NCBI RefSeq assembly: GCF_964204865.1
Contig: NC_135259.1
Coordinates: 7,884,974 to 7,948,973, forward strand
Direction: 5' to 3'
DNA length: 64,000 nt
DNA from: Styela clava
Taxonomy: Eukaryota > Chordata > Ascidiacea > Stolidobranchia > Styelidae
Below the pieces are notes generated by a model. The model was not told the DNA's origin and made no database searches. It saw only the letters and a program-made list of their open reading frames with translations. The number at the start of each line of letters is the position of its first letter. The first letter of the stretch is position 1. A program made the position numbers and the translations under genes. Below, one piece after another: positions 2,243 to 43,981 of the stretch.

Positions 2243-3032
2243 ATAGAAAGTTTATTGCAATTGCGACAAAAAATGGGACCTATCTTAAGGAAAATTGTCG
2301 TTTTCGTCGTGCTGGTACTGTGAATTGCATCTATTGAAGGTAGGAAATTATGGCGAATGAATAGAGAATATATTTATAGTGCTTTGTAGAATTTGCTTGT
2401 GCAGGACACCTATCTATACGCAAATTATTTAAAGGTCATAAAACATTACACTTTATAAAATTTTACGCTTTAAAATTTTAGTCTACTAATCCCAAGTCAT
2501 ATTCTTTTTGTATCAGCCTATTAATGACTGGGAAAAAATTTTCGAGTAATTTATTTTTAGTAATCTAAAAAAATAAATTTTATTCACTTTTTTTGTCATC
2601 ATTTAACGACCAAGATATTGAGAGAAAGTTTGAAAAATGGCAATAATAAAGTGATGTATAGCTGAAAGCTGACTATTACAGTATTACCCCATTCATTCTG
2701 CTTTTGTACGAGTCTATGTAGCCTACATGCATTGATTGAAAAAGTAGTCGACTATTTCGAGTGGTTTCAACAGCCCTTCATACAATTTCGAATACTGCAA
2801 CGTTTCGTCTAACCAGAGCGGGCAACAATATTTATTGGTATCTGAATTTGAGCAGAAGAAACGTTACACACTATTGTTTATGTAAATACGCTTCATAGGT
2901 TATGAACCACTGGAAATGTTAATATTTTTTTGTTCTTCTTCACAGGCCGAAGAGGAAGTTTTCAGATGTTTTCGCGTCGCAGACGTCGCTTTTGACTCAG
3001 ATGAACTTATCAAAAATACTATTTTAAATAAA
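2243..3032 (+). pseudogene. Decayed copy of small cationic secreted-peptide gene
   Basis: Paralogue of the intact gene at 5.7-6.7 kb, with the same exon layout. Exon 2 runs 2243-2339 with ATG at 2273; exon 3 starts at 2946 and reads to TGA at 2993-2995; poly(A) signal AATAAA at 3027-3032. In this copy the codon that is TGG (Trp) in the intact gene is TGA at 2321-2323, cutting the frame inside the hydrophobic core of the signal peptide after 16 codons. Exon 3 remains open and very basic (RRGSFQMFSRRRRRF), sharing the F-Q-x-x-S core and Arg clusters with its sister. The stop makes a functional product unlikely unless it is an assembly error, a segregating allele or read through. Confidence 0.7.
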
Positions 3033-6203: not shown

Positions 6204-6634
6204 ATGGGACCCATCTTAAGAAAAATTGTCGTTTTCATCGTGTTGGCACTGTGGATTGTATCTATTGAAGGTAGGAAATTATAAGAAAATGAATAAAAAA
6301 AAATATTTTTGGTGACACCAATCTATACGTGTTTGAATTGGACTTAATATAACATTATATTCCGATCGTTCTGAAAATTTAGTTCACTAAACATAAATCG
6401 GATTTAATTTGAATCAGCCTAATATTGACTGGGAATAATGACCTTGATACACTTTCGAATTCTGCAATGCCTGACTTTGGACAGACGAAAGATTACAGAA
6501 TATTTTTCATGGGGATACGATAAATAAGTTTTGAACCAATGAAAATTATAATATCTATTTTTTGTGTTTTCTCTACAGGCCGAAGGAAAAGATTTCAGAT
6601 CCTTTCAAGCTACAGACGACGTCACTATGGATGA
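6204..6634 (+). CDS. Small Arg-rich secreted peptide (40 aa), two coding exons
   Basis: Coding exons are 6204-6270 and 6579-6634 (phase-1 intron, donor GTAGG, acceptor CTACAG); exon 2 begins at 6173 after a TATATCAG acceptor and has 31 nt of leader before the ATG. The product is 40 residues. Residues 1-23 are a signal peptide (basic n-region, core VVFIVLALWIVSI, small residue G23). The rest, RRKRFQILSSYRRRHYG, has six Arg, one Lys, one His and no acidic residue. It ends in Gly, the donor for C-terminal amidation, and FQILSSY is bracketed by RRKR and RRR convertase-type sites. It could be an antimicrobial peptide or a neuropeptide-like factor; I recognise no named family. Poly(A) signal AATAAA at 6658-6663. 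Support for it being a gene comes from the matching exon layout of the paralogue at 2.2-3.0 kb. Confidence 0.72.
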
Positions 6635-7061: not shown

Positions 7062-9264
7062 ATGAGTGCTTCACTTCTGGAAAACCTTAATGCGAATGAA
7101 GTTATTATGAGGATAGAAAATGAAGATTCAGGTGTAGGTCTATATTTAATTTTTGCAAAATTTCGTTAGTCTACGGTACCAACTAAAAATGAGTTTAGTA
7201 AAAGTATTTTATTCTTATAGATGACATGCTTGAAACCCAAAGTGTGTCATATTCAGACCCAGACTTTGTTTTTATTCAAGAGTGTGATGAGGATGAAGAA
7301 AATTGGCAAGGTGTTAAATCTAAAAAATTAGCCAACTACGCTCAACGCAGTTCCACAGTGGCTAGTCAGTCCTGTTTTTGTTTTCAATTTATTTAATATC
7401 ATCATTGCTGCTAACGTTACACTTTAAATCATGTTTTCATTATCTGTTTTAGACGTTGGGTAAAAGGAAACGCGTAAAACAGGCGCGCCCCTTTGGATGG
7501 AAAAATAATATTTGCAAAAGGAATCGTCTAGCTGGATTAAATTATAAAAGCCGAAAAGGAAAGCAAAATATAGCAAGAAAAATGGGGATGCCGTGCAAAT
7601 CCACTAATTGTCGAAAATCCAGCTTACGGCAATGTGCGAGTCTGACAGAAGATGAGAGACAGTGGGTTTTCAAAAATTTTCGGAAAATGGAATCGTGGTC
7701 TGAAAGACGATCATATGTCAGGGCTTCAGTATCGAAGGTAAACGATACTTAGAAACACTGATTTTATGTCACGATTTCCGCATCTCATTTAATTTTTACT
7801 GTTTCCTAGGTTACCACCAAGCAAAGGAAAATTGCTGAAAATACGTCAAGAAGAAAGTCATCTTTTGAATACCATTTACAATTACAAAAATGGAACATGC
7901 ATTCTGGTGTGCAAAAAACTACAATTGGCATTAGCCAACAAACTTTGCTCTCGTGACTGGAAGGGCCCGCACCATTCATAAAGTTTTTGGACCCGCATCG
8001 TCCAAGAAAAGGTATGTAGCAAAGAGAGCAATTAATGCACAATGTAATATTCATTGAATAATGACTAAAACATTTTTTAAGGTAAAACTGTTTTCTTTTA
8101 TCCAAAGGCAAGATATGGATTTCATTATAAAATGGTTACATGCACTACCTACATTGCCATCTCACTATTGCCGTTCTAGAGGTACCTATAAGAATAAAAA
8201 GTATCTATATCCCGGAACGACTGTTTCAAACCTTCATCGTTTATATTCTGAAGAGGCAACAAATTCTGAAAGACGGGTTATTAGCATCGCAAAGTTCAGG
8301 GACATATTCAACAAAGAAAATTTTTCAACATTTCGGCCTAGAAAGCCCCAATGTGATATTTGTGTGGAATTTTCGCATGGAAATATTGACGACGGGGAGT
8401 ATAGAGCCCATGTAATATCAAAAGATGTGGCGACAGCTGAAAAAATTGCCGACAAAGAATCAGCTGATGGGAGCATATCCGTTTGGACTATAGACTTACA
8501 GACAGTCCTGATTCTCCCCAAAACTCACGCCAGTTCGATGTATTATAAAACCAAACTTCAGATGCATAATTTTACTCTTTATAATTTGCAAACAAAAGAA
8601 GGATTCTGCTATCCATGGGAAGAGCACGAAGGCGATTTAAGTAGTGAAGTGTTTGCCTCGCTACAGTTCTCTCATTTCAATCAATATGTTACAGATCATC
8701 CTTCAATAAAAGAACTAGTGATATGGAGTGACGGTTGTGGGTATCAAAACCGTAATGTAATCGTCGCAAATGCATATTTAGATTTGGCACGGAAACATAA
8801 AATTAAAATAACGCTGAAATTTTTAACAACTGGACCCACTCAGATGGAAGTGGATTCAATGCATTCCATGATTGAGAAAAAAGTTGTGGCTGACGTTATT
8901 ACGTCACGTGATTACACGTAATCATTCAGTGTGCAAGGTCTCAGCCATTTCTATACCAGGTCAAGCCAGTACAACATCAGGATTTTAAGAAAATGACGGG
9001 GAAATACTTTGCCAGTATATGCCCTGGAAATACAGCAGGTGATCCAAAGGTGCATCATCTCCGAGCAATACAGTATACTTCCACTATTCACTGGGGAATT
9101 ACTTCCACGCAGAATGCATAAACCTGAAAAACCATTCCAATGGATAAATTTGTTTCCAGGTCAACTTAAGATAAGCTGTAGAAAATTTTGTGACTTACAA
9201 GAAATGAAGAGTGCTGCCAACATACGCACATTGCTTTTATGACAAAATTCCACACCATTCATAA
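7062..9264 (+). pseudogene. Decayed DDE/RNase H-like transposase-type gene (DUF7869-like family)
   Basis: Inferred exons: 7062-7131, 7221-7357, 7453-7737, 7810-8011, 8108-9264. The exon at 7453 is basic (GKRKRVKQARPFGW) with a CKSTNCRKSSLRQC cysteine cluster. The large last exon has a CDIC motif, an acidic WTIDLQ strand, a WSDGCGYQNRN motif and a TQMEVDSMHS motif, which together resemble the D, D and E positions of an RNase H-like transposase core. I recall similar proteins, many intron-containing, across insects and other invertebrates (labelled DUF7869 in recent databases; from memory). The frame is broken at least four times: near 7954, near 8915, between 9085 and 9120, and near 9212. Family-like residues continue in the shifted frames (for example CPGNTAGDPKVHHLRA after 9020 and LPTYAHCFYDKIPHH at the end), so it is a pseudogene, not an intron-rich live gene. 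Confidence 0.7.
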
Positions 9265-29822: not shown

Positions 29823-30978
29823 TCAACGGATTTCATCGTCGCACGAGTGAACACTTCTTTTCTTCTTTCCGGGAGGAGGCCACGTAGGTCCTGGAATCCA
29901 TCTTCTGCGAAACACAAAATAATTAAATAATTTTATTAAACAAAATGGTAAGCCCAATTCTAATTGTCAGCAAATGTAACAAGTGCATATACAAACAACA
30001 ATTGCATGTGAGATCTTATTACATGCGCGATCACGACCTGAGACCTGAACTTCAAGAAACACTTGTTCTTATATGTGGCTGTGATTGGACATCAAATTTA
30101 AAAAATAGAGGAAGCTACTAAAAATATGACAATTTAGAAAAAACATCATGTGACTTGGATTATACAAAACTAATATAAGATAAGTATGAAATATATTATA
30201 GATTTATATATAGCTTATAATATATGACCTATTCAGTCCAACTATAAGGCGTACTTGTGACTTGTGAGTACATCCCAAATAATTGAGCGATGATACTTAA
30301 TTAAACCGCATACGGCAGTCGCAAACTGCCGTACACGAACAACTTTTTGAGGAACGAACGATCTCAGTTTTATTTGATAACAACAATAAGTCAATAATGC
30401 TCGAAAATTTAGTATTATTTGCGTATGGGTGTATATTCTAATAATGGCTGTTGTGAGGCACTTGTTTTGTACTAGCCTAAGCAGCGAAAGCAAAAGTTGT
30501 CACTGGTGTGACTGTCGTTTACTTGCCGAACGTCTCCACCATTAGTTGTAATTAACTCAGGAATAGAAGTTACAGGTGCGCCGTAAAGTATAATGCGGAT
30601 ATCTAGGAGAAAATTAATGTAGCCTACACACTACCGGAAATGCAGATATTTGGCCCAGTAGTACAAGAATTTTGGTGATCACCGACATGAGTAATATGCC
30701 TAACTGCTCACCAAACGTTCGATAATAATGCATTTTTCGCTCAGGTGTATCATTACAAAATTGACTGTTCTAAAGCAAAATTATTGTAACAGAATAGACG
30801 ATTCATTTCGAAGTTTAGGAAGAAATATTGATACATCATCGACCAAATACAATTTAGAAATACAATAAAAAAATTACCTTGTTTTTGTCGCTACTTGTCC
30901 TTCGGTTAGTTGATTTTCCAATATTACAGCAATCACAAGGAAAAATACGAGGTAAGCAGATATTAATTTAGACATCAT
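29823..30978 (-). CDS. Secreted amidated-peptide precursor (60 aa), two exons
   Basis: Minus-strand exons 30,978-30,878 and 29,904-29,823, joined by a phase-2 intron of 973 bp (donor GTAATTTTTT, acceptor TTTCGCAG). The precursor is 60 residues. Residues 1 to about 28 are a signal peptide with core LISAYLVFFLVIAVIL and a polar c-region ending TEGQ. Then comes VATKT-RR, the peptide WIPGPTWPPP, G-KKKR, and a tail SVHSCDDEIR. RR and KKKR are prohormone-convertase sites and the Gly before KKKR is the amide donor, so the predicted product is WIPGPTWPPP-amide, with a Cys-containing acidic tail peptide. This is the classic layout of a neuropeptide or peptide-hormone precursor, acting outside the cell, presumably via a GPCR. 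I recognise no named family. Two adjacent ATGs start the frame. An AT-repeat/TATA-like tract at about 31,021-31,040 lies 45-60 bp upstream. Confidence 0.75.
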
Positions 30979-33646
30979 AACGGTAAATAATAGTTTCTTT
31001 GATTTTATGAACCTTAAACAATATATATATATATATATAGTTAGTTATTTTGGAAGTTTATCACGTCAAAGCAACTTTGAAATTTCGTTTTATATAGACT
31101 CAAGCATCCCCAGTTTATAATCTACTTCTAGTAGACGCATCAATAACGTTTTATAAAACTTAGCCAAAACAACAAATTTTTCATGTAGTCATGTTGATAC
31201 ATTGTACATAAATTTAAGGATAAATCTTCAGTGCCAAATGAGCAAAACCACCGCAGTTTCTCACCAAAAATCGAAAGAAAATGTTTACAAAGAGATAGGT
31301 CGTGAAAACTTATAGGTGACGCAAAGCAGTTAAAATATGATTGCGTGAAATTACTTATAATTCATATCGATAACTACATTAGTCATACTCAAACTACCTT
31401 TTCCGAAACACTCTATCAAATAATTATTTTATACAAAATAGTTCAGGGTTGAGTTTAATCAACCTAAATTATTTATTTATGTGTCGATCCTTATCGCCAT
31501 TTGGAATTCTAATTATTGATAGATATGATACGAATTGCAAAGTTGATATAATTTTCGAAGAAGCTATATTGTGCCACAAAACGAGATGCAAAATGATCGA
31601 AAATTGCTTGATTAGCGTGACTAAGCATAGAGGTATTCATAATTTTCCAAATAGGTTAGCGAAATATAGGTTTATTCTCGATTTTTTTATCGTTGTATAA
31701 TAACAAAAAAAAGGTCTCTTCATTTGATACAAGTCCACTTGGAACTTAGCTAAAGTGTAGACCCCTCTATTATAAATGATTTTCAGCCTTACGGTTTATC
31801 CCAGATCCCTCCACCGTGTATAATTTGCTAAGTCTGTTTATATATCATATTATCAATGCTTTTCCGGAGCGTTTTTGTAAACCAAATAACATAAAGCGTA
31901 TTTGGTGCCATGCAACCACGCACGATATACCTTTAAAGGTGAACTATTTTGAGAATTCTACTTTAATTAAAATCAAACGGAGAAAATTTAGAGTGAAGTA
32001 GTAACTCAGAGTAAGTTTTAAAAAATAAATAGGCCCAATAGCCTTCATCAGACTTCTCTCAGTCTAAATATGAGTTGCGTAGAAAAAGCAATTTTTCAAA
32101 CAACAACAATCAGTCCTACAGCACCGTCAACAACAATAAGAATATCGCATAACGATCCATAAGTAAATTTCGTGTCAAATTAACTGGATATATCCGTTTA
32201 TTTCTCTGATGTTTTCGCCAAACCCACAGCGTTTTCCTTATCTTGATAACTATCGAACAACATCCACACACTCCTACGAAATAACCGACAATCATCTAAA
32301 TTAGGAAAAGTAACATATTCGACATTTGCGAATAGCTACGTCAACAACTTTTTTTCGATATTTCCCTCGTCTAATAATTCAAAACGATTTCCGGCATTAT
32401 CTATCATTTTGGGCCTTTTTTGTATTAACCATTTTTAGCTTTATTTTATACAAAACGTCATTTTAATATGCATTATGTAACGTTGAAGTCAGCTTCTATC
32501 AGTTGTATTTGAACATAATATAAGTCTTAAGATAGTAGCAATCTCAATTTTTTTAAAACTGATGTGTGTGTTATCTTTCAATATTAACTTTATACCTTCC
32601 AGTTTCACACTTCTACTTATTTTAAAGCTTTTTGTAGCATTTCTACTGATTTTTAATTTTTTTTTATATAAAAATTTCCCTCTTTTTGCGTGATGTAATG
32701 TTTTATTGTTATAAATAAAACTTTTGTCCCATTTTCAATCGAATTTTCTTCCCCTTACACAAACGTTAGTGCAAGAACAATTTTTTTCGTTAAAATGAAT
32801 GTTAATGTAATATTTTTTTACCTTGTAAATTCCTGAATCAATTGTTCGCATTAACTTAAATGCTTTCTCCTTTGGAAATATCTTTCCCCATCCATTCTAA
32901 CAGTTATGTCGATATTGGATTCATCGAACATTTTAAAAGTTTTCTATTGGCATGAAACGTTAGGAGCCTACAGTTATCAAGCGACAATCGTGCCACGGTA
33001 ATAAATCTATAAATGTGCCTTTGTCACTGAATAAATACACAGACTATACGAACTAAGAATATCTGGAGCATGACTCTCAAAACATACAATTCCTTGAGGA
33101 TTACCAAACTGAGGCAATTGAAATTACCTGTAAATTTCCATCGCCGTCCAAGTTCGTCTCAGCATTACATCAGTAAAAAAGTAAAGAAAATATAAGATTT
33201 ATATTGAGTTTAAAACATTTACATTAAATGGATTCAATGCTATCATAAAAGCATTACAAATAAAAAAAAATTGATTCCAGTCTACAAAATGAAAGAAGTT
33301 ATTGATAATCTAAGATGAAATCAAATAATACAGAAATTATAAAGCGATTTCTGAGGTTGGATATACCAGTTACCAGAATTTTTTAATATTTCAGAATATT
33401 GAGCTCAGTTCCATCTATTCCAATTTACCTTGAGTATTTAAGAGAATGACATTTTCAAACAACAAAATACAGATAAGACTTTAAATTTTAAGAAGTTATC
33501 TAAGTTACATATTAGAAAAAAATAAATCAATATCATCTGATAGTTAGAATTGTCGCAAATGAAGCGATTCATGGCAAAAATATTAGTTCATACAAAATCA
33601 ACAAATATTCTGCATCTTAGAGAAACACATAAACATGGGATTCGAT
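30979..33646. other. Intergenic region between peptide gene and TBC1D31
   Basis: Starts with an (AT)n tract at about 31,021-31,038 that may serve as TATA for the peptide gene. A repeat R1-like block lies at about 32,100-32,180. The 3' UTR of the TBC1D31 gene lies at its right end. Other open frames (31,449-31,700; 31,816-32,001) show nothing recognisable. Confidence 0.5.
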
Positions 33647-36600
33647 TTACTTATATTTGAATGTGGGTGGAGGATCCCGTCTTACATGTTGAGATACTAA
33701 ACGTTGACGGAGTTCTCTAACTTCATTCATGAGTTGTTTTTCTCGTTCCTCGAATGTCATTCGACCTCGATCTGTTGTAAAAAGTGAAGATGATGATTCT
33801 TCTGTTTCAGTGGATAGGCTATTCAAGCACCGGCTATTAGGAAATGACATCATTGTTTGCTCACAATCACCTTCTTTATTTGTGTCATTAATAATTCTCT
33901 CGTATTGGCTAACATTTCTTTTTTCGCGACCTATTGCTTGTATTCTCTCTTCTTTTGCATCGAGAAGTTCTTTTTCCAGTGTGACAAGTTCTTCTCTCGC
34001 TTTATGAAGCTCACTGTCTTTGGCATCCAACAATTCACGTAGTTTTTCATTAATGAAACCATGTTGTTTTCTATGTTCTGCATTCCCTGCTAAGACTCTT
34101 TCTAGATCACGTTCTCTTTGTTTTGTATCAAGTATATGCTGCTGAATGACTTCTGCTTGATGTTTGGTGGCATCCCTCTGAAGCTCTTTCTTGGCAATTC
34201 TCTCTTCCCATTTTCGAACAGATTTTAATTCAGCATCCGTCTGTTTTTGTTGAAGTCGGCTAAAAGTATGTGCTTCCGAATTTTGTTGATGGCGATATTC
34301 CTGAACTTTGTCTTGGTTTTTGTGAGTGAGATCAGCTTCATGTTGAGCCATTTGTTGCTCAAGTTTTATTCTCTGTCCTTCTAGTTCCAGACCTTCAATC
34401 TCAACATCTTCTATTGCTGCTGCAGTCTCTTGTTCTCTAAGGCGAGCAGTTCTTTGTATTTCATCTTCTAATCGTTGTATATCGGTCTCCTTTTTCATTT
34501 GCTGATGTTGCACAAATCTCAATCTTGCGGCATCCAGAAGTTGAAGTTCACGAACTCTCAGTTCCCGTTTCATAGCAGCAAGACGCATTCTCTGTGATCC
34601 AAGTTTTTGATCTTCATCCATGAGAATCTTTCTTCTTTTTTCCTCAGCTTCTGAGAGCATTTCTTGTTTCTGATACCAAGCTTCATCTTCTAACTTCCTA
34701 TTAGATATCTCCTGAGCGAGTTCCTCAGCTACCTTTCTCTCTCTTAAATACTCAATTTCATCTTTCTTTATTCTTTCACGTTCACGAGCTTGGTAATCAA
34801 CAATAAATTTGGGATATTTGTTGAAGACAGGATATGCCGTTCCATTCGGTAGAGGTTTAAACGGCTCAATAAGTGACTGAATTTCAATATCCTTCGGTGT
34901 GGATTCCATGAGATGATATGTTTCACGTATGACAGCATTGAGATCCAATGAATTTCTGTTATGAAAGAAAAACTTGATGTCATCACCATTATCAGTTCGT
35001 AGCAAAGCCGCTCTGCATGAAGTACAATAAGCAACAACACCATAAAGAATAAACGAGGGGTCATTTGAAAGTATGTGATCAAAAAATCTCAACCATTCCG
35101 CCCTTGTAAATACTTCGGTAAAAAGCGTTTGAAGCAGAGGCCAAGCATAATGCTGAGTTGTAACTTTGAATTTAATAAAATGATGAAGTAACTTTTTATC
35201 ATGATGTGCTAGAACATTTTCAACAGCACTGAGAATACCAAGTGGAGGATTAGGAAAGAATTCGAACCAATGTTGACACCAGTTGATCAAAAATGTGGCA
35301 ACCATCTCAAAGCAAATCAAGTGATTATTTTGAAAAAGTTTTACAAAAGGAAACACAGTTGATGGTAGGCTGTCTAATTCCGCAAATATAACAGACCAAT
35401 GAGCGAGAGCTGACAGAATCTTCTGTAATATTCTCTGAAGTCTTCCACTTTTAATGGGATATTGCTCTTGTAATGCTGCATAAGACAGATGTGTTCCTTT
35501 TTTGACCAAAGCTGAAAATGCAGATGTGTTTTCTGGTAATTGCAACATACTTCTCCAAATAAACATCCTGTACTGCTCTGGATATTCACCATGACCTTTT
35601 AATACTTTCAAAAGTCTAGATTTTGACAAACCGTTTGGTAGATCATCTTCTGTACGAACGGTTTCATCTTCAACATATTTATTGTATCGTATTCTACCTG
35701 TCGTTACAGTGTTGTTTAGAGGCCTTCTTGCAGTTTGCTGCAATGTGCTGTCAGGAAATTTAGACACATCGAATGAAGTCCCAGTGTCAACAGAAACTTT
35801 GTGCTTCCATATGTCGCCAACAACTTTAACGAGAGGACCAGGGGGTTTATTCAAATCAGCACAAAGTGACGGCACATCATAGAAAACAAGTGATCCACCA
35901 AGGGTTATAGCAGCAATGTGTTCACCTACAGAACTGATGGATATGCTCGTGATTCTGTCGTCATCTCTTGGTGATACAATTTCAAAAACGAGACGACAAG
36001 TCTCCAAATCAATGAACTGTACAATACCATCTTGGCTTATAACTCCCAAAATTTTATTCGCACCATTGTCAAATTTATCTGGTAAAAACAAAATATCTTT
36101 AACGGAAGTTACATGTGGCGGCATCTGCACAATACGAATTATTCGTAATGTTTCAAGAGAGTACACATGAAGTAGATTTGATTTACCAGCTGCTACAAGA
36201 GTTTTTCCGTTTCTTGTAACAGCGTAAGATCGGTAGTCAATGGGATCAGCTTGAGAATTGCATTTCAACTGATATTTCCATTCTAAGGTTTCCGCGTCCC
36301 ATGCAAAAATTGTGTTGTCTTTGAAACAGGTCATAATCAAGTTCGTTTGTGGTATAAAAAATACTTTTCGAATTCCAACGGAAGTCATGACATTTAGTTT
36401 TCTTTTCCGCTCAAATGTTTCAATATCCCAAAGTTGAGCAGTATCTTGTGATGTAGTTATAGCAACATTGCCATCGCCGTTAATAGAAATAGTATGAACT
36501 GCGGTATCATGTCCTCTCATCCAACTTATAAGCTCTTTAGTCTCGGTAGAACAGCATTTTAGTGAAGTATCTGCCAATGCAATTAGGTATTCTGATTGAT

Positions 36601-36886
36601 TCTGCAGACCAGTGGCAATGCAGGTACATGCTTGACCAGTGTTTTGTATGATAGAAAATCGATTTTCTACGAGGTCAAACAAGTACACAATTCCAAGATG
36701 ATCTCCGACAATCAATCTTTCGTGTCCAGCGACGAAGGATGACTTTAAAATTCGATGACGTTTACCAGATTTCACTCCAATCCCAGAATGAGAAATGCTG
36801 CACATAACTCCGTTATTTGCATATGGATTTGGTTTACGGAACCATATTCTTCCACTGGTTTTTCCAGTCAAATCCAACTCCAACAT
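33647..36886 (-). CDS. TBC1D31: TBC1D31-like WD40/TBC/coiled-coil protein, 1079 aa, single coding exon
   Basis: One uninterrupted frame of 1079 residues, near the roughly 1066 of human TBC1D31, collinear end to end. Residues about 40-350 are WD40 repeats (GRIWFRKPNPYANN, LIVGDHLGIVYLFDL, TKELISWMRGHDTAVHTISI, TTSQDTAQLWDIETFERKRK). About 415-640 is the TBC (Rab-GAP-like) domain: GHGEYPEQYRMFIWRSMLQL, LSALAHWSVIF, LINWCQHWFEFFPNPPLGIL. About 660-700 has YPVFNKYPKFIVDYQARERE, then a charged coiled coil to about 990, and a C-terminal VRELRQRL motif. TBC1D31 is a centrosome/centriolar-satellite protein linked to cilia formation; GAP activity is doubtful because canonical Arg/Gln fingers are not evident. 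The vertebrate gene has many introns, so an intronless frame is unusual. A CTCAG acceptor just upstream of the ATG suggests a 5' UTR intron. Confidence 0.95.
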   Translation of the reverse strand: MLELDLTGKTSGRIWFRKPNPYANNGVMCSISHSGIGVKSGKRHRILKSSFVAGHERLIVGDHLGIVYLFDLVENRFSIIQNTGQACTCIATGLQNQSEYLIALADTSLKCCSTETKELISWMRGHDTAVHTISINGDGNVAITTSQDTAQLWDIETFERKRKLNVMTSVGIRKVFFIPQTNLIMTCFKDNTIFAWDAETLEWKYQLKCNSQADPIDYRSYAVTRNGKTLVAAGKSNLLHVYSLETLRIIRIVQMPPHVTSVKDILFLPDKFDNGANKILGVISQDGIVQFIDLETCRLVFEIVSPRDDDRITSISISSVGEHIAAITLGGSLVFYDVPSLCADLNKPPGPLVKVVGDIWKHKVSVDTGTSFDVSKFPDSTLQQTARRPLNNTVTTGRIRYNKYVEDETVRTEDDLPNGLSKSRLLKVLKGHGEYPEQYRMFIWRSMLQLPENTSAFSALVKKGTHLSYAALQEQYPIKSGRLQRILQKILSALAHWSVIFAELDSLPSTVFPFVKLFQNNHLICFEMVATFLINWCQHWFEFFPNPPLGILSAVENVLAHHDKKLLHHFIKFKVTTQHYAWPLLQTLFTEVFTRAEWLRFFDHILSNDPSFILYGVVAYCTSCRAALLRTDNGDDIKFFFHNRNSLDLNAVIRETYHLMESTPKDIEIQSLIEPFKPLPNGTAYPVFNKYPKFIVDYQARERERIKKDEIEYLRERKVAEELAQEISNRKLEDEAWYQKQEMLSEAEEKRRKILMDEDQKLGSQRMRLAAMKRELRVRELQLLDAARLRFVQHQQMKKETDIQRLEDEIQRTARLREQETAAAIEDVEIEGLELEGQRIKLEQQMAQHEADLTHKNQDKVQEYRHQQNSEAHTFSRLQQKQTDAELKSVRKWEERIAKKELQRDATKHQAEVIQQHILDTKQRERDLERVLAGNAEHRKQHGFINEKLRELLDAKDSELHKAREELVTLEKELLDAKEERIQAIGREKRNVSQYERIINDTNKEGDCEQTMMSFPNSRCLNSLSTETEESSSSLFTTDRGRMTFEEREKQLMNEVRELRQRLVSQHVRRDPPPTFKYK

Positions 36887-37413
36887 GATTGAAAACGCTG
36901 AGATTTTTATAATGTATTGCTATGTTTCAATTGAAAAAATTGAATTATTTAATTGAGAATCTATCATAATTTAACAGATATTGATAGAACCATATTGGGA
37001 CTGCATGAAATTTAGATGTCAAATTAATTATGAATTAAGTATTCATGACTTGAATTAACATATTTTATGTCATAAATTCATGATTTTGTAATATGCTTTT
37101 AAATCAATTCGAAAATCTGACAATCTATTTTTTTTAAATCAATTCCAAGTGGAATCCTCATTTCTGTATTTAGTGCATAACAAATATCGATTTGGACAAA
37201 TAGATATAAAGATTTTATTGAGATAGTTGGTTATCCAAAAATTGTCAATATTAGAACTCAGCTGCATTGAGCTAGTAAAATACTGAATACCTGAGAAGCA
37301 GAGGCATTGCACTATTAACTTTTTCCATAATGAAAATAGAACATACCTTATTTCATAAATAATACAACAGTCTGACAGTATGTAAATATATTATAAACAT
37401 CTATGGACAGAAG
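36887..37413. other. 5' flank of TBC1D31
   Basis: AT-rich; likely holds the 5' UTR intron and promoter of the minus-strand TBC1D31 gene. No further gene seen. Confidence 0.4.
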
Positions 37414-38460: not shown

Positions 38461-38699
38461 AAAAGGGAGGGGTCTCCCTAAAACCAGGCACTCGCGAATT
38501 CAGGCACTTTTTCAGGCACCATTTCAGGCACTTTGATATTTTTTTATTTTTACAGTACGTCATTGGGATTTCCAATTTACCTGACAAGATAATTAGACTT
38601 TAAATAATTTTTGCATCCCTATATTGCAATAAAACAATATTATTTCCGATTTATTAGGGTATAAATAATTTTTCAATAGTAAAATGTGGCAACATTGAT

Positions 38700-40250
38700 T
38701 ACAAAATATAGAAAACAGGCACTTGTGAAATTTCAGGCACTTGGTCAAAACCTATTTTACAATGTATCTGATTACTCTAAAGCAGAAAATTGAATATAAA
38801 CACTTTGTATGGTTGAATTTACAACCTTTTGGTAAAATACAATACCGTTTGTGACTGACGGAGGCGTGTCATATTTCGCAAGTGCCTGATTTTTCATTTT
38901 TCTCGGTGACAGTTGCCATATTTTTTCGCAATTATTTTCCTAAATTATTTGGGTCAGCACTTCCATTCTTTGCTTTCTAACGCAAATTCACTGTTCCACA
39001 ACAATTTGAGCGTTTTTAGTATTGCAATGAGCAATACCATTTGACAACATATAGTCAACCATCGTACTTTCTGGATTTATTTGAAATTGAATATGAATAA
39101 TAAAATCTGGCAACCTCAAGCACAAAATACTAAAACCAGGCACTTGTGAAATTTCAGGCACTTTGTAACAACCTATTTCTCGATGTTTTTACTTACTTTG
39201 AAGCAGAAAACTAAAATATACACTCTTTTGTATGATTGAAATGACGTCTTTTTGGTAAAAAACAAGAACGATTGGGACTGGTCATGAGGGGTCAAATTTC
39301 GCAAGTGCCTGATTTTTCATTTTTATCGACAACCGTTGCCATATATTTTCGCAACAATTTTTCTAGATTATTTGCGTCAGCACTTACTATTATTTGCTTT
39401 CTAACGCAAATTCATTGTTCGACAACAATTTGAGCATTTTTAATATTGCAATGAGCAATGCCATTTGACAACATATGATCAACCATCGTACTTTCTGGAT
39501 TTATTTGAAAATTGAATATGAATAATAAAATCTGGCAACCTCAAGCACAAAATACTAAAACCAGGCACTTGTGAAATTTCAGGCACTTCGTAAAAACCTA
39601 TTTCTCGGTGTTTTTACTTACTTTGAAGCAGAAAACTAGAATATACACTCTTTTGTATGATTGAAATGACGTCTTTTTGGTAAAAAACAAGAATGATTGG
39701 GACTGGTCATCAGGGGTCAAATTTCGCAAGTGCCTGATTTTTCATTTTATCCGACAACCGTTGCCATATATTTTCGCAACAATTTTTCTAGATTATTTGC
39801 GTCAGCACTTACTATTCTTTGCTTTCTAACGCAAATTCATTGTTCGACAACAATTTGAGCATTTTTAATATTGCAATGAGCAATACCATTTGACAACATA
39901 TGATCAACCATCGTACTTTCTGAATTTATTTGAAAATTGAATATGAATAATAAAATCTGGCAACCTCAAGCACAAAATACTAAAACCAGGCACTCGTGAA
40001 ATTTCAGGCACTTCGTAAAAACCTATTTCTCGATGTTTATACTTACTTTGAAGCAGAAAACTAAAATATACACTCTTTTGTATGATTGAAATGACGTCTT
40101 TTTTGGTAAAAAAGAAAAACGATTGGGACTTGTGATGAGGGGTCAAATTTCGCAAGTGCCTGATTTTTCATTTTTTTCGATTACAGTTGCCATATATTTT
40201 TGCAATATATTTCATAAAATCATTTTCGTCAGAACTTAGTACTTACTATA
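38700..40250. repeat. Left-arm tandem repeats, period about 420 bp
   Basis: The block around AGGCACTTGTGAAATTTCAG recurs at about 38,718, 39,138, 39,558 and 39,980, and the CGCAAGTGCCTGATTTTTCA block at about 38,878, 39,300, 39,726 and 40,152. The second and third units are nearly identical; the outer one is more diverged. Confidence 0.8.
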
Positions 40251-42244: not shown

Positions 42245-43981
42245 AAAATTATAGAGATATGGCAACGACCATTGACAAAACCAAAAAATCAGGCACTTGC
42301 TAAATTTGCCACATTCCTACCAGTGACAGTTCTTCTTGTTTTGAACAATAAAAATACCAAATTCAGTCATACAAAATATGTATATTTGGATTTTCGGCTT
42401 TAAAGTAATCAAAAACATCGGGAAATGGTTTTTTACAAAGTGCCTGAAATTTCACAAGTGCCTGATTTTAGTATTTTGTGCTTGCGGTTGCCAGATTTTA
42501 TCATTCCTATTCAATTTCAAATAAATCCAAAAAGAACGATGGTTAGCTATATGTTGTCAAATGATATTGCTCATTGCATTATTAAAAACGCTGAAATTGT
42601 TGTATAAATAGGAATTTCCTTTAAAAAGCAATGATTAGTAAGTTCTGACGAAAAAGATTTTATGAAAAGTATTGCAAAAATATATGGCAACTGTAATCGG
42701 AAAAAAGGAAAATTCAGGCACTTGCGAAATTTGACCCCTCATCACAAGTCCCAATCGTTTTTCTTTTTTATCAAAAAAGACGTCATTTCAATCATACAAA
42801 AGAGTGTATATTTTAGTTTTCTGCTTCAAAGTAAATATAAACATCGAGAAATAGGTTTTTACGAAGTGCCTGAAATTTCACAAGTGCCTGGTTTTAGTAT
42901 TTTGTGCTTGAGGTTGCCAGATTTTATTATTCATATTCAATTTCAAATAAATCCAGAAAGTACGATGGTTGACCATATGTTGTCAAATGGTATTGCTCAT
43001 TGCAATATTAAAAACGCTCAAATTGTTGTGGAACAATGAATTTGCGTTAGAAAGCAAAGAATAGTAAGTGCTGACGCAAATAATCTAGAAAAATTGTTGC
43101 GAAAATATATGGCAACTGTTATCGAAAAAAATGAAAAATCAGGCACTTGCGAAATTTGACCCCTCATGACCAGTCCTAATCGTTCTTGTTTTTTACCAAA
43201 AAGACGTCATTTCAATCATACAAAAGAGTGTATATTTTAGTTTTCTGCTTCAAAGTAAGTAAAAACATCGAGGAATAGGTTTTTACGAAGTGCCTGAAAT
43301 TTCACAAGTGCCTGGTTTTAGTATTTTGTGCTTGAGGTTGCCAGATTTTATTATTCATATTCAATTTCAAATAAATCCAGAAAGTACGATGGTTGACCAT
43401 ATGTTGTCAAATGGTATTGCTCATTGCAATATTAAAAACGCTCAAATTGTTGTGAAACAATGAATTTGCGTTAGAAAGCAAAGAATAGCAAGTGCTGACG
43501 CAAATAATTCAAGGAAATAATTGCGAAAAAATATGGCAATTGTCACCGAGAAAAATGAAAAATCAGGCACTTGCGAAATATGACACGTCTCCATCAGTCA
43601 CAAACGGTATTGTATTTTACCAAAGTGTTGCAAATTCAACCATACAAAGTGTATATATTTAATTTTCTGTTTTAGAGTAATCAGATACATTGTAAAATAG
43701 GTTTTGACCAAGTGCCTGAAATTTCACAAGTGCCTGATTTCTATATTTTGTAATTAATGTTGCCACATTATACTATTGGAAAATTATTTATACCCTAATA
43801 AATTGAAAATAATATTGTTTTATTGCAATATAGGGATGCAAAAAATTGTTTAAAGTCTAATTATCTTGTCAGGTAAATTGGAAATCCCAATGACGACGGT
43901 AAAAATAAAAAATATCAAAGTGCCTGAAATGGTGCCTGAAAAAGTGCCTGAATTCGCAAGTGCCTGGTTTTAGGGAGACCC
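42245..43981. repeat. Right-arm tandem repeats, inverted relative to the left arm
   Basis: CAGGCACTTGC-type blocks recur at about 42,292, 42,717, 43,140 and 43,564, and AAGTGCCTGAAATTTCACAA blocks at about 42,438, 42,863, 43,289 and 43,713, the same ~420 bp period as the left arm. The open frames here (42,425-42,607; 42,662-43,039) are repeat translations, not genes. Confidence 0.8.

Follow-up and report, generated by a model that had tools for sequence, protein, structure and literature searches.

A putative two-exon precursor of an amidated Trp/Pro-rich decapeptide in Styela clava

Do two short exons on the minus strand of a 64,000-nucleotide stretch of the Styela clava genome (hereafter the window) encode the precursor of an amidated peptide, or do they resemble one by coincidence? 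The initial annotation had proposed that the exons, neither longer than 34 codons, join in phase to a 60-residue precursor which carries, in this order, a signal peptide, an RR site, the decapeptide WIPGPTWPPP, a Gly amide donor, a KKKR site and a Cys-containing acidic tail, and that the splice signals match. Reading of the joined frame confirmed the exon sizes, the phase and the GT-AG intron, and all elements are present in the claimed order. With a little more doubt than belief, we incline to read the locus, from its sequence, as a lineage-restricted prepropeptide from which a Trp/Pro-rich decapeptide would be released in amidated form; this may be a neuropeptide or peptide hormone.

Structure of the candidate gene

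The 60-residue frame was read from the sequence; it consists of exon 1 and exon 2 joined in phase and ends in TGA. Its parts are:

30878..30978, minus strand: exon 1, 101 nt; carries the start codon and signal peptide, then QVATKT and bases 1 and 2 of a split Arg codon
29905..30877, minus strand: predicted intron, 973 nt, GT...AG
29823..29904, minus strand: exon 2, 82 nt; last base of the Arg codon, then R-WIPGPTWPPP-G-KKKR-SVHSCDDEIR-stop
29871..29900, minus strand: codons of WIPGPTWPPP, read from the sequence and confirmed in position by a pattern match

The joined translation is MMSKLISAYLVFFLVIAVILENQLTEGQVATKTRRWIPGPTWPPPGKKKRSVHSCDDEIR-stop. Within the RR site, the intron splits the codon of the leading Arg (AG/A, the stroke marking the junction), and the codons of the decapeptide are followed by GGA for the amide-donating Gly and by AAGAAGAAAAGA for KKKR. 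The predicted donor, AAG/GTAATT, agrees with the consensus at eight of nine positions and lacks the G at +5; the same GTAATTTTTT form is probably also used in the neighbouring folate-carrier gene at about 25551, as read by eye. The acceptor is TTTCGCAG/A and is preceded by a T-rich stretch. Two further elements in suitable places were spotted by eye, with no statistics attached:

31088..31096, minus strand: TATA-box-like TATATAAAA, some 110 nt before the start codon
29626..29631, minus strand: AATAAA, some 190 nt past the stop codon

Membership of the exons in the TBC1D31-like gene on the same strand (33647-36919) was ruled out because the TBC1D31 frame has its own stop.

Codon usage was trained on 1,492 codons from three neighbouring stretches and ranked against a background of overlapping stop-free stretches outside the masked genes. 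The joined frame fell within the top 2.0% among stop-free non-coding stretches of 60 codons, while exon 1 and exon 2 taken singly ranked in the top 5.4% and 7.1% of stop-free stretches. The score per codon was 0.07 for the candidate versus 0.17-0.19 for the two main training genes, which were scored on themselves. The GC content of exon 2 is 0.50 versus 0.337 for the intron, placing it in the top 1.5% of the 82-nt segments of the window, and that of exon 1 is 0.337, the background level. Overall, codon usage lends the model modest support.

Processing signals and predicted products

The initial annotation had suggested signal-peptide prediction as a check. Under a crude hydrophobicity measure and the -3/-1 rule, a signal peptide was recognized, with the hydrophobic core LISAYLVFFLVIAVIL following Lys4 and a plausible cleavage after LTEG, before Gln28. 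The peptide in the joined frame is flanked on both sides by basic sites and followed by the Gly amide donor (RR ... G-KKKR), and the precursor holds a single copy of it.

From this arrangement a maturation route can be proposed. Removal of about 27 residues by signal peptidase would leave an N-terminal Gln able to cyclise. RR and KKKR would serve as cutting sites for a PC2/furin-class convertase, the basic residues would be taken off by a carboxypeptidase, and the exposed Gly would be converted to the amide by a PHM-type monooxygenase. The result would be WIPGPTWPPP-NH2, and the released peptide might act on a G-protein-coupled receptor. The Cys-containing acidic tail could dimerise the precursor. 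Domains of the copper monooxygenase family (PHM/DBH) are encoded in the genome, with 46 exon-level matches at E values up to 0.001, a count in which PHM and its relatives are taken together. The calculated [M+H]+ of WIPGPTWPPP-NH2 is m/z 1146.609 and that of a longer pyroglutamyl form is m/z 2070.140. The released decapeptide has a calculated charge of only +1, and the uncut stretch RRWIPGPTWPPPGKKKR contains 6 basic residues among 17.

Expectation by chance

The reading that competes most seriously with a prepropeptide, and which could well be correct, is that there is no gene at all, and that the in-phase junction of a short hydrophobic open reading frame with an unconnected GC-rich stretch is fortuitous. 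The scan of both strands required a start codon with a crude signal peptide, then a donor with an acceptor at most 2 kb away; the product had to be in phase, 40-150 residues long and equipped with a motif reaching into exon 2 that consists of a dibasic site, 5 to 20 residues and a Gly-dibasic site; these criteria were fixed only after the candidate had been seen. Under every setting tried, the real window yielded one model, this candidate, and none other in the window has the full motif set. Dinucleotide shuffles produced the full motif set in 0 of 2400 cases with strict splice settings and in 21 of 2400 with relaxed ones, a number that fell to 3 of 2400 when a tri- or tetrabasic site was demanded in addition. 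An earlier run of 200 shuffles had given 0, 0 and 1 at three settings. The strict and the longer-site counts argue against coincidence, as do the codon-usage signal and the GC content of exon 2; the 21 relaxed successes argue for it.

The shuffles understate chance, because real DNA is richer in combinations of a signal-like exon with an acceptor: 18 in the window versus a shuffle mean of 0.82 under strict settings, and 128 versus 22.2 under relaxed ones. When the relaxed shuffle rate per combination is scaled to the real number, about 0.06 models per window are expected for dibasic sites and about 0.01 for tri/tetrabasic sites. The genome of 376.6 Mb corresponds to about 5,900 windows of equal size, so that relaxed look-alikes should number in the tens to hundreds across the genome, with fewer at strict settings. 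As a control, real DNA of this genome, 131,249 bases in all and partly rich in signal-peptide exons, gave one model by the dibasic rule at strict as well as relaxed settings and none by the tri/tetrabasic rule. We judge the dibasic model spurious since its motif falls within a tandem-family signal exon (see below) whose frame was continued into the intron. It nevertheless speaks for coincidence, and the absence of a longer-site model from the same DNA speaks against it. The initial annotation had called the ordered set of signals unlikely by chance; this holds for one window, where strict shuffles gave none, and is weaker across some 5,900 windows in a genome that yields a spurious model in 131 kb.

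Relatives and known peptide systems

Genome searches, in which only the best first-look candidates are scored, revealed no second copy; with the 60-residue query, nothing but its own two exons came up at E values up to 10. The DNA query gave 18 genome matches, namely itself and 17 diverged ones, all of the latter inside the intron, where they mark the following feature:

30393..30693, no strand assigned: old interspersed repeat within the intron, with 17 other diverged genome matches of 65-89% identity, 7 of the 17 re-aligned

A looser version of the peptide pattern had ten matches.

In Pfam nothing exceeded the cut-off, the best hit being DUF6724 on the hydrophobic core (E 0.045, 14 bits against a cut-off of 27), and the part after the signal peptide had no match. 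Neither NCBIfam, a prokaryote library, nor the PDB held a relative of the candidate, and neither Rfam nor tRNA scanning of the window returned anything for the peptide. Viral contigs and prokaryote genomes contained no relative of the peptide; a TBC1D31 query against the viral contigs was likewise without match. The peptide was not matched in the papers searched, apart from single letter matches in papers judged irrelevant by their titles. The motif WPP does not occur in the main texts of PMC4237046, PMC7596734, PMC6585902, PMC7179676, PMC12604039, PMC10148640, PMC13078634 and PMC11678341, and PPPG is missing from the main texts of all but one of these, that one having been searched for WPP only. 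The supposition that the peptide stands outside known families is borne out in Pfam, NCBIfam, the PDB and the papers searched. Little tunicate DNA is to be expected in any of these collections, the viral and prokaryote ones included, so that a missing match carries little weight. The lack of a homologue in the collections searched is at the same time a point for coincidence.

Several described systems resemble the candidate in part. Insect SIFamide and AKH are made as single-peptide amidated prepropeptides, and precursors of this type are likewise short, with a signal peptide, one peptide with a Gly-basic site and a Cys-containing tail; they share no peptide motif with the candidate, and the host here is a tunicate. 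Tunicate GnRH follows the motif pQHWSxxxxPG-amide. It agrees with the candidate in its ten residues, its Trp, Pro and Gly, its amidation and its basic cleavage site, whereas the candidate has neither the QHWS start nor the C-terminal PG-amide of that motif. The C-terminal endings of Ci-LF and Ci-YFV/L are LF and YFV/L and differ from that of the candidate. Both are Ciona-specific neuropeptides named in PMC7002689 and a precedent for tunicate neuropeptides that are restricted to one lineage, as the candidate would be.

Neighbouring genes and genome context

At the left end of the window lies a tandem family of small two-exon genes, in which a signal exon (MGPILRKIVVFIVLALWIVSIE) is followed by a short Arg-rich exon. 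Two of the copies are:

6204-6270 and 6579-6634, plus strand: tandem-family copy with Arg-rich exon GRRKRFQILSSYRRRHYG
2273-2339 and 2946-2995, plus strand: tandem-family copy with a TGA within the signal exon

Between position 7820001 of chromosome C13, on which the window lies, and window position 9000, a distance of 74 kb, there are 14 signal exons. By a simple joining rule 10 of the 14 could be paired with an Arg-rich exon; 9 of these 10 are free of stops, and 7 joined copies end in FAG, with a possible amide donor. Five further relatives lie near 10.30-10.31 and 13.47-13.48 Mb of C13, four of which were re-seen in the sequence. Two adjacent members of the array, at C13:7822053 and 7826850, recur 13,461 bases further on at 7835514 and 7840311 with identical translated exons, which reflects either a recent duplication or an assembly duplicate. 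One member of the family gave no match in Pfam or NCBIfam, and three pieces gave none in the papers searched. The family looks like an array of defence or signalling peptides. The repeated signal exon at 2.3 and 6.2 kb had been taken for a remnant of an odorant-binding protein, an idea that was withdrawn together with that of an insect origin.

The other features of the window are:

24579 onward, plus strand: folate carrier
33647-36919, minus strand: TBC1D31-like gene, one uninterrupted frame of 1090 codons from stop to stop
about 54,600 onward, plus strand: N-terminus of Par-3
38675-40205 and 42362-43777, opposite orientation: two arrays of a 424-425-nt tandem repeat, about 2.2 kb apart

The uninterrupted TBC1D31-like frame is striking in an intron-bearing genome and could reflect intron loss or a retrocopy. 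The arms of the 424-425-nt repeat are up to 97% complementary, and the paired arrays are a large palindromic repeat element. Elsewhere in the genome, 33 of the 46 exon-level matches to the copper type II monooxygenase domain lie on C13 (10.37-10.76 Mb) and C5, which suggests that the PHM/DBH-like family is expanded.

The ten ends of chromosomes C13, C17, C2, C9 and C10 carry TTAGGG in three cases, a satellite built of roughly 51-nt units in five and neither in two. C13, C17 and C10 have the telomere repeat at one end and the satellite at the other and may be acrocentric. On C9, one exon matches cellulose synthase (PF03552, E 5.3e-7) and a family-2 glycosyltransferase (PF13632, E 8.9e-17), and about 2 kb away on the same strand lies a GH6 exon (PF01341, E 9.9e-11); we infer that both belong to one gene. 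To our knowledge, the combination of cellulose synthase and GH6 occurs among animals in tunicates only. The insect origin was withdrawn in view of TTAGGG at three chromosome ends and of the cellulose-synthase-like exon lying about 2 kb from the GH6 exon. COX1 was not found in the assembly.

Discussion

In favour of a prepropeptide are the in-phase model, which contains the processing signals in full and in order, is single in the window and was reached by none of the strict shuffles and by three under the relaxed rule with a longer basic site, as well as the codon usage, the copper monooxygenase domains and the TATA-like and AATAAA elements that are well placed by eye. Against it stand the lack of a homologue or paralogue in the collections searched, the donor without G at +5, the codon score below that of the training genes and the unraised GC content of exon 1. 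The post hoc criteria, the genome-wide multiplicity, the spurious dibasic model in 131 kb, the single peptide copy and the greater frequency of signal-like exons in real DNA than in shuffles also count against it.

If the locus is a gene, its product could be of another kind. It is rather improbable that RRWIPGPTWPPPGKKKR is little cut and acts on microbes as a Trp/Pro-rich defence peptide, which the acidic tail would neutralise in the precursor. The composition resembles that of the Trp-rich antimicrobial peptides indolicidin and tritrpticin, in which Trp and Pro are prominent and basic residues flank them (PMC6017362), and an array of genes for small Arg-rich secreted peptides is found some 23-93 kb off on the same chromosome. 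However, indolicidin and tritrpticin are mammalian, the basic residues of the candidate are placed exactly as convertase and amidation sites, the freed decapeptide is nearly uncharged at +1, and no second copy was found. A reproductive or glandular peptide, or a longer pGlu-VATKTRRWIPGPTWPPP-amide with RR left uncut, is very improbable: predicted cleavage before Gln28, by the crude rule, permits a pyroglutamyl N-terminus, but nothing specific favours such a product over the decapeptide.

We therefore return to the amidated decapeptide. The interpretation first proposed has stood as regards gene model, processing signals and absence of a known family; the preference for a neuropeptide, rather than a defence peptide or some other secreted peptide, is our inference from architecture alone. 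It is possible, though on balance doubtful, that the locus represents a tunicate-restricted neuropeptide system with the ligand WIPGPTWPPP-amide, which would end in an unusual Pro-Pro-Pro-amide and lie outside the described families; ORF-based annotation would miss exons as short as those of its gene. An ion of m/z 1146.609 is the single exact prediction of the model and is cheaply checked. Were the model true, it would show how readily small split precursors escape notice, and a triple-proline amide with two Trp residues would be a new ligand.
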